From NCBI GenBank assembly GCA_024643305.1, contig JAHENE010000137.1:1-5761 (forward strand): DNA of 5,761 bases. Reading direction: 5' to 3'. Below are positions 2,651 to 4,028 of this stretch, piece by piece. Numbering within the stretch: the stretch's first letter is position 1; every line of letters starts with the position of its first letter. This stretch comes from Thiobacillaceae bacterium. GTDB lineage: Bacteria; Pseudomonadota; Gammaproteobacteria; Burkholderiales; Thiobacillaceae. Made by a program: the position numbers and the translations under genes. The notes below the pieces were generated by a model, which was not told where the DNA came from, searched no databases, and saw nothing but the letters and a program-made list of their open reading frames with translations.

Positions 2651-2911
2651 ATGGCCAAAGAAGAACTCGTCGAAATGGAAGGTGTCGTCAGCGAAGTGCT
2701 GCCGCAAACTCGATTTCGCGTCACCCTGGATAATGGCGTAGAGATCATTGCCTACGCCTCCGGAAAAATGAGAAAGCACCGCATCCGCATTCTTGCGGGT
2801 GACAAGGTCACCCTGGAAATGTCGCCTTACGATCTGACCAAGGGCCGCATCAATTTCCGCCACAAGGATGCAAATGCGCAGCCGCGTCCCGCCATGGCCA
2901 GAAGATACTAA
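2651..2911 (+). CDS. infA: Translation initiation factor IF-1, second-copy type with a C-terminal extension
   Basis: 86 residues against about 72 for standard IF-1. The S1/OB-fold is complete: [21 protein letters not shown] (9-29), the diagnostic [17 protein letters not shown] (37-53), and [14 protein letters not shown] (58-71). IF-1 binds the 30S A site and helps IF-2 and IF-3 during initiation. The extra tail (about 72-86, [14 protein letters not shown]) is rich in proline and ends in basic residues. Betaproteobacteria often carry two infA genes, and the divergent one has this kind of tail, so the canonical copy is probably in the ribosomal protein operon elsewhere (inference). The start is fixed by GAGGA at 2639-2643; an upstream in-frame extension to 2534 has no such support. 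The next gene begins 25 bp downstream on the same strand. Confidence 0.95.
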
Positions 2912-2936: not shown

Positions 2937-3194
2937 ATGAGCGACGCGAAAAAAGCCCACCCTGTCGGCGTCTGCAAAATCTGCGGTGGTATCACCTACA
3001 GCATTGAACTGATCAACCAGCGTTGCGGCCGCAGCCCGCATGGCCGCCGTTGCAGCGGCAAGTTTGCCAATGCCTCGCGTGACAGCGACTGGAAAGCTTG
3101 CGAACCCTGCGATGGCACCGGAAAACTGGACTCTGCGCAATGCGTATACTGCCGCGGAATCGGCTGGAACCTGACGAAACCCTGGATTATTTAG
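2937..3194 (+). CDS. Small eight-cysteine, probably zinc-binding protein
   Basis: 85 residues, no signal peptide, so cytosolic. Eight cysteines are arranged as C13-x2-C16, C30, C39, C55-x2-C58 and C69-x2-C72. The last two pairs lie in CEPCDGTG (55-62) and CVYCRGIG (69-76). This closely resembles a CxxCxGxG zinc module of DnaJ, and both pairs would form one zinc site. The first four cysteines could form a second. There is no J-domain or other catalytic domain. It lies 25 bp after infA on the same strand, which suggests co-transcription and perhaps a role near the ribosome or RNA (inference). Only GGAA precedes the ATG as a possible ribosome site. Its TAG stop overlaps the stop of the opposing thioredoxin-fold gene by 4 bp. 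I do not recognise a named family. Confidence 0.75.
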   Translation: MSDAKKAHPVGVCKICGGITYSIELINQRCGRSPHGRRCSGKFANASRDSDWKACEPCDGTGKLDSAQCVYCRGIGWNLTKPWII

Positions 3195-3596
3195 GCGCGG
3201 GAATCCAACGCCCTGCGAATTTCATCCAGTGGCTGCCATCCGTTGGTAATGAGATGCAAATCATCGCCTTGCTGCAGCACAAGAGTCGGAAATCCGCTCA
3301 CCTTTGCCTGACGGGCATGTTTGAAGTGCGCCAAAGTCCGGGCGCGTATCTCATCTGATTCAAATACCTGCGTGAACTGGATGCGCTCCACGCCCATGGC
3401 AGCCGCAATGTCGGCCAGGGTATCCGCTTTCGTCACATCGCGGCCTTCGGCGTAAAACGCCGATTGGATCCCCTTCAGCATCGGAAAAACTTTTTCCGTA
3501 TCGATACTGCCCATGGCCAACACTGCACGGCTCGGAGGTTCAGTGTCATATACAAAACCTTCCGGCATTGCGCCCTCAAAATGGAACGGCTGCCCA

Positions 3597-3686
3597 GTGC
3601 GTTCATGCACCTGGCGCCAGTGATGCAGGATGTCCTCGCGCAATGAATCGGAAATCGTATCACTGGCGCCAGGTGCATGAACGCAC
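3597..3686. repeat. 28-bp perfect inverted repeat with 34-nt loop, overlapping the direct repeat
   Basis: The left arm is 3597-3624 (starts GTGCGTTCATGC, ends CCAGTGAT). The right arm is 3659-3686 (starts ATCACTGG, ends ATGAACGCAC). All 28 positions are complementary. The 34-base loop is 3625-3658. The left arm encodes the normal protein segment just after LHH; the right arm is its inverted copy, present only because of the insertion. Confidence 0.97.
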
Positions 3687-3729
3687 AGTGATGCAGGATG
3701 TCCTCGCGCAATGAATCGGAAATCGTATC
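3618..3729. repeat. 44-bp perfect direct repeat inside the thioredoxin-fold gene
   Basis: Copies at 3618-3661 and 3686-3729 are identical, beginning CAGTGATGCAGG and ending AATCGTATC. They are offset by 68 bp, which is not a multiple of three. Flanking bases differ (C/A on the left, A/G on the right), so the repeat ends are exact. Loss of one copy with the spacer restores the gene. Confidence 0.97.
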
Positions 3730-4028
3730 GGTCGTGCCTGGCCGCAGTCCGCCCATCACCAGCGCAATTTTCAGGCGCGGGCGGTATTCCTCGCGTATCC
3801 CTTCAATAACAGGCGAGAAACCCCAGCACCACGAGCACATCGGGTCGGCAAAATACCAGAGAACGGCTTCATTCATTGCATTACCTTGGTTGTCAGGCTT
3901 GACACCGCTGCCATAACATTGTCGTTAAGTTCGCTTCGAAAAAATAATCAAGCAATTATCCCCAAAGTCCGTTATAAATGAGGGGTGCATTTTCGAGATG
4001 CCCAAGGATCATATTAGGCGGAGACAAC

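Follow-up and report, generated by a model that had tools for sequence, protein, structure and literature searches.

The window analysed here, a stretch of 5761 bp, is the entire contig C186 of assembly G000 (2,081,496 bp in 311 contigs, 83% complete and 3.5% contaminated), which we infer from the assembly figures and from its kin to be a metagenome-assembled genome (MAG). Its minus strand carries, at 3191..3876, a DsbM-like gene of the DsbA family that contains a 68-bp insertion and is divided into two open frames. The other genes of the window include infA, encoding translation initiation factor IF-1 (2651-2911, plus strand), a gene for an 85-aa cysteine-rich protein that has a weak, sub-cut-off match to anti-TRAP and adjoins the DsbA-like gene (2937-3194, plus strand), and, at 2101-2355 on the minus strand, a gene for a small HicA-like protein whose match to PF07927 (23.4 bits) lies under the cut-off of 27. 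A defence-gene setting was considered and rejected, the four neighbouring proteins having no match to PADLOC defence profiles at E <= 0.01, and a structured RNA was set aside as no Rfam match reached the gathering threshold within the window.

The N-terminal open frame (3475..3876, minus strand, 133 aa) is native for its first 63 residues and out of frame thereafter, and the C-terminal open frame (3191..3643, minus strand, 150 aa from an internal TTG start) is native, with 77% identity to the orthologue in G006 (UBA6918). The C-terminal piece matched the Pfam DSBA profile PF01323 at 42.9 bits (cut-off 25.6) as well as PDB 2in3 and DsbM, a cytosolic disulfide reductase (5hfi, 5hfg). The CxxC site, CSWC, is retained in the N-terminal piece, which matched PF13743 at 20.1 bits, under the cut-off of 27; neither piece matched NCBIfam. 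From the profile match and the CxxC site the interrupted gene is predicted to encode a DsbA-family thioredoxin-fold oxidoreductase. It measures 686 nt from start to stop (3876 to 3191), and an insertion of 68 bp, which does not divide into whole codons, puts it out of frame; subtraction of the 68 bp leaves 618 nt, or 206 codons including the stop, and the relatives' proteins are mostly 206-220 aa long (best 120 of each of two protein searches). The first-pass annotation had described a DsbA-family gene broken by the insertion and a 205-residue protein on its removal; the former is borne out by the two open frames, the DSBA profile match and CSWC, and the latter agrees with coordinate arithmetic and the lengths of the relatives' proteins, the two pieces having been compared separately. 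The match of the N-terminal frame ends at DILHH and the C-terminal frame begins just before those residues, a region that is contiguous in the seven orthologue rows of the protein alignment (7 of 11 relative rows, from 6 genomes, were used as orthologues; L007, L009, L011 and L013 were left out). The gene was without a match (E <= 0.001) in 4 of the 8 other genus genomes, three of these four being only 75-83% complete, and judging from these absences it may be dispensable.

The insertion is made up of an inverted repeat and a direct repeat that overlap. The left arm of the inverted repeat, which is the source of the inverted copy, lies at 3597..3624 (plus strand, 28 nt) and is followed by a loop of 34 nt (3625..3658) and by the inverted copy (IN) at 3659..3686 (minus strand, 28 nt), to which it is 100% complementary. 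The inverted copy includes 3 nt common to junction 1 and 1 nt common to junction 2, so that the inverted fragment measures 25-28 nt depending on how the junction bases are counted. The direct repeat consists of two 44-nt copies (DUP) without a mismatch, at 3618..3661 and 3686..3729 (both plus strand), 68 nt apart from start to start. From the repeat coordinates, the overlap leaves a 7-nt core in three copies, with the middle one inverted: direct at 3618..3624, inverted at 3659-3665 and direct again at 3686-3692. At junction 1 the common bases are ATC (3659-3661), complementary to GAT at 3622-3624, and at junction 2 a single C is shared (3618/3686). A perfect palindrome of 10 nt (3611..3620) lies within the copied segment. 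The 68 inserted bases, which can be placed at 3662..3729 as one possibility relative to the uninterrupted site of the relatives, are all templated by the adjoining 65 bases, and the copies run forward, then inverted, then forward again. The earlier description of a reverse-complement copy of the adjacent segment followed by a direct copy, with ATC at the left junction and one C at the right, was thus reproduced exact to the base. An insertion sequence or other mobile element was ruled out, the inserted letters all being copied from the adjoining sequence.

Repeats of this length are far above chance. The longest repeats within 200 nt of each other in the window were 28 nt (inverted) and 44 nt (direct), against maxima of 16 and 14 nt when the window was resampled 300 times under a first-order Markov model; on either side of the site (below 3580 and above 3740) the longest inverted repeat was 10 nt and the longest direct repeat 11 nt.

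The ancestral state was read from a DNA alignment of nine loci selected from those retrieved, three from the same genus and six more distant, all from other species. All nine run straight through the site, the 68 extra columns being present in the window only, and the insertion is therefore derived; this was the comparison with relatives' orthologues that the first-pass annotation had proposed. A DNA search of the nine genus genomes gave matches in five, including the window's own genome, and in two of these (G006 and G008) the flanks matched in two pieces overlapping by 38 and 24 nt on the side of those genomes, the pattern expected when the query carries a local direct duplication. By the broken gene, the closest relatives that have a name are Thiobacillus MAGs, with UBA6918 at 77% identity (C-terminal piece) followed by QR_Bin.5 at 66%, and the source of the window is probably a Thiobacillus-like bacterium.

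The most likely reading, held with moderate confidence, is that the insertion arose in the bacterial cell when DNA replication switched template twice in succession, producing a very short small inverted triplication. Read from left to right, synthesis would arrive at 3661, where the 3' end ATC would pair with GAT at 3622-3624, and copying would then proceed backward as far as 3597. The pairing may have been within the strand, by a fold-back round the loop of 34 nt, or with the sister strand. The freed end would return to its first template at 3618, with one base shared, after which normal synthesis would resume. A return 44 nt upstream of the departure point means that newly made duplex must be reopened, and it is this upstream return that places the event in the small inverted triplication class.

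The copy order, from which a double template switch had already been proposed, with a stalled replication fork as its putative trigger, matches the forward-inverted-forward order of the four-point template-switch model (PMC7954356). In the notation of that model the switch points are assigned here to the order 3-4-2-1 along the ancestral sequence. As point 2 lies before point 1, an intra-strand fold-back is allowed if the plus strand was growing; with the opposite direction of replication only an inter-strand switch would serve. Switches of the '4 before 1' kind are described as reopening the new duplex, leaving a direct repeat and appearing as one large insertion (PMC7954356), and the insertion resembles them in its order, in allowing intra-strand switching and in the direct repeat left behind; the catalogue given there, unlike the present case, is of great-ape genomes. 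Here the whole insert has a local origin, and the ancestral state comes from nine of nine relatives' loci, all from other species. In bacteria, quasipalindrome template switching in E. coli thyA and lacZ reporters (PMC7202029) likewise uses the nascent strand as template and then returns, but the switching described there corrects an arm of an imperfect palindrome, whereas the present site shows no strong imperfect palindrome beforehand and its return 44 nt upstream adds sequence. A strong pre-existing hairpin was considered as the trigger and is not supported. The pre-switch sequence folds no better than its shuffles (z of -0.24 and 0.01 for 3585-3661, and of -1.02 and -0.68 for 3585-3630), so that no strong earlier hairpin explains the site. 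The inverted similarity that predates the event past the first switch point is weak, at 7 of 12 nt, a value equalled or exceeded in 1.8% of background comparisons with the same 3 preceding nucleotides.

The small inverted triplication (SIT) was named in 2026 from rad27-delta yeast and human cancer genomes (PMC13334657). It is described as a DUP/IN/DUP arrangement with medians of 148/160/148 bp, a spacer of 30 and a junction of 6 bp, in which the flanking duplications range from 7 bp to more than 10 kb and the inverted fragment from 20 bp to several kb; 95 events were reported in rad27-delta yeast against 0 in the wild type, and the model offered is a fold-back or sister-strand switch (PMC13334657). 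The insertion in the window shares with this class the DUP/IN/DUP order, a similar spacer (34 against a median of 30), a reverse-complementary first junction and a predicted hairpin, and its duplications of 44 nt, inverted fragment of 25-28 nt and spacer of 34 nt agree with the size features of the class. It differs in being much shorter (44/28/44 against 148/160/148) with only 7 nt truly triplicated, in having 3 and 1 nt of junction microhomology against a 6-nt mode in the yeast class, and in coming from a bacterial genome, the published class being from yeast and cancer. Judged from the sequence by the order and size of its parts, the window insertion is a probable SIT and would be a new bacterial case of a known class. 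DUP-TRP/INV-DUP rearrangements (PMC4352052) are alike in that an inverted segment is flanked by two direct copies, but their inverted triplications are given as kilobases to megabases (PMC13334657). No natural bacterial SIT was found among the open-access papers surveyed, which is no proof of absence. The tandem inversion duplications of bacteria also place an inverted segment between two direct copies.

The main alternative, possible though doubtful, is an assembly or library artefact, in which two contigs overlapping by 44 nt were joined unmerged with a 24-nt fold-back read end between them, the gene in the cell being intact. The most telling point in its favour is found on contig C30 of the same MAG (L108, 1411-1502), where a tandem duplication of equal length, 44 bp (a 48-nt exact repeat, extending 4 nt past one unit), breaks a gene for a RelA-type GTP diphosphokinase into two frames; all eight other genus genomes lack it, their matches spanning 44 nt less than the part of the query covered. 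The same 44-bp length at the relA-like and DsbA-like genes makes a shared artefact conceivable, and two frame-breaking direct repeats of equal length in one MAG may reflect chance, biology or such an artefact. In addition, three of ten scaffold joins made with N runs have mutually repeating flanks: at the 10-N joins of L088 (6300-6441), L122 (4302-4490) and L182 (1159-1581) the flanks repeat 20, 34 and up to 32 nt, and these joins are either unmerged overlaps or strain variants placed in series. L082 (contig C4) opens with a 40-nt perfect palindrome (1-40), as a fold-back read end could leave, and inverted-repeat chimeras are reported for ligation-prepared nanopore libraries (PMC13141652), which would apply here if this MAG was sequenced in that way. 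Finally, no second contig carrying the site was found, and the protein matches listed (best 120 of 2820 and of 1412, from 5.8 billion proteins searched) include no allele from the same species, in either the inserted or the uninterrupted state; the sole identical match among them is the protein encoded by the window itself.

Against an artefact, the site has no N run, and the other joins have no fold-back copy (longest 9 nt). The sequence at the site also goes back to the forward strand after the inversion; fold-back artefacts usually stop after a single inversion. Five contig pairs (L217/L211, L211/L200, L186/L178, L183/L091 and L175/L103) share an exact 120-nt match at a contig end, and in two of them (L186/L178 and L211/L200) one mismatch after the 120 nt is followed by further match, an indication that the assembly k was about 120 and that strain variants were left unresolved by the assembly. 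The two junctions are 24 nt apart, and with k near 120 and a contig that is continuous at the site, single reads would need to have held both of them, one k-mer nearly spanning the event. Other contig pairs share 105, 41 and 29 nt at their ends, so this estimate of k is not firm.

Further counts were made in a sample of the MAG consisting of 140 contigs, three of them to 20,000 bases only, from which 16 all-N contigs were dropped, so that 124 and the window (125 contigs, 882,943 unmasked bp) were searched. A local inverted and a local direct repeat, both of at least 20 nt, coincide only at the window site in this sample. A second match to the same signature, in a relative (L048, 2503-2599), was rejected as a short tandem-type repeat of different structure. 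Inverted repeats of at least 16 nt with a loop of at least 15 nt numbered one, the window's own, in the first 61 contigs (413,460 bp), and the same count in the relatives' loci gave 4 in 206,496 bp and 3 in 97,839 bp, the two sets partly overlapping. As such repeats are no commoner than in the relatives' loci, the part of the MAG sampled is not rich in fold-backs, and the idea of a MAG full of them was not borne out in the sampled contigs. Exact tandem duplications with units of 10-250 nt numbered 5 in the 125 contigs (longest unit 44 bp), compared with 12 entries, several of them nested, in 74 control loci (350,758 bp), which indicates no excess in the MAG. We regard the insertion, with moderate confidence, as a real event.

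A staggered double-strand break, with 44-nt overhangs filled in on both sides and a 24-nt templated filler joined between them, would fit the geometry, in which a 44-nt duplication encloses a short inverted filler, and fold-back templated insertions, most of them shorter than 14 bp within a range of 2 to about 150 bp, are reported at breaks in yeast (PMC11724301). The yeast events, however, need end-joining proteins (PMC11724301), and Ku was without a match in all nine genus genomes, which makes classical end joining less likely; the point is limited, since Ku was present in only 1 of 14 control genomes and its absence is thus usual. The 44-nt stagger is an additional assumption, and the break is considered very improbable. 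A 65-bp tandem duplication with later inversion of part of the second copy could also yield inverted and direct copies, but no trace of the intermediate is seen and 68 bases, not 65, were added, so two events are extremely unlikely. A selected on/off switch, in which a repeat-hairpin element reversibly silences the enzyme, draws on the reversion of SITs on E. coli plasmids (PMC13334657) but is hardly credible, as the element is in none of the nine relatives' loci and a gene unmatched in 4 of 8 other genus genomes is better suited to a dispensable than to a regulated function.

The double template switch would have left an allele with a strong fold. As single-stranded DNA the inserted state is calculated at -41.1 kcal/mol (z -11.8), and none of 200 shuffles was as good. 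With its 28-bp hairpin between 44-bp direct repeats, the allele is predicted to be unstable and to be lost by replication slippage. On E. coli plasmids the reversion of SITs to the original sequence had come to about half by day 4 and stayed level thereafter, and in deletions of sbcC, sbcD or rep the SITs were retained up to day 15 (PMC13334657), although those SITs were longer than the structure in the window. Canonical SbcD (TIGR00619) had no match in any of the nine genus genomes; among 100 genomes of the family 4 scored over the cut-off, and among 250 of the order 46 did so, the order set having been requested at a completeness of at least 90%. Partial, weak SbcC matches were obtained in 6 of the 9 genus genomes with none over the cut-off, and the one in G000 (39.8 bits, in a 1167-aa open frame) is probably an SMC protein, judging from its length. 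Rep-type helicases were matched in all nine genus genomes, none over the Rep cut-off. The absence of SbcD agrees with tolerance of a hairpin, but the link is weak. SbcD is often absent in the order, so its absence alone cannot explain one event, and the yeast homologue of SbcCD is reported to spare inverted repeats with spacers of more than 8 nt in normal cells (PMC8053094), which weakens the link further given the 34-nt spacer here. A broader proposal, which we consider quite improbable, is that this Thiobacillus-like lineage, in whose genus neither canonical SbcD nor Ku was found, gathers small frame-breaking rearrangements through backward steps of the polymerase by a set distance of about 44 nt, taken plainly in relA and here by way of an inverted detour, and that SITs would persist in natural bacterial populations as reversible knock-outs.

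Should the insertion be an artefact, it would be a warning to seek read support for MAG pseudogenes that combine local inverted and direct copies. Interest in the site would rise if reads confirm the event and the 44-nt coincidence with the relA-like gene proves to be biological, and such events could be counted in genome collections by a simple search for split conserved genes in which a local inverted repeat overlaps a local direct one. In the 2026 paper the formation of SITs was studied in yeast and tumours, and E. coli was used to follow their loss (PMC13334657). If real, the window would provide a clean, junction-resolved SIT in a bacterial genome, and the same two-switch error would act in bacterial chromosomes and inactivate genes there.
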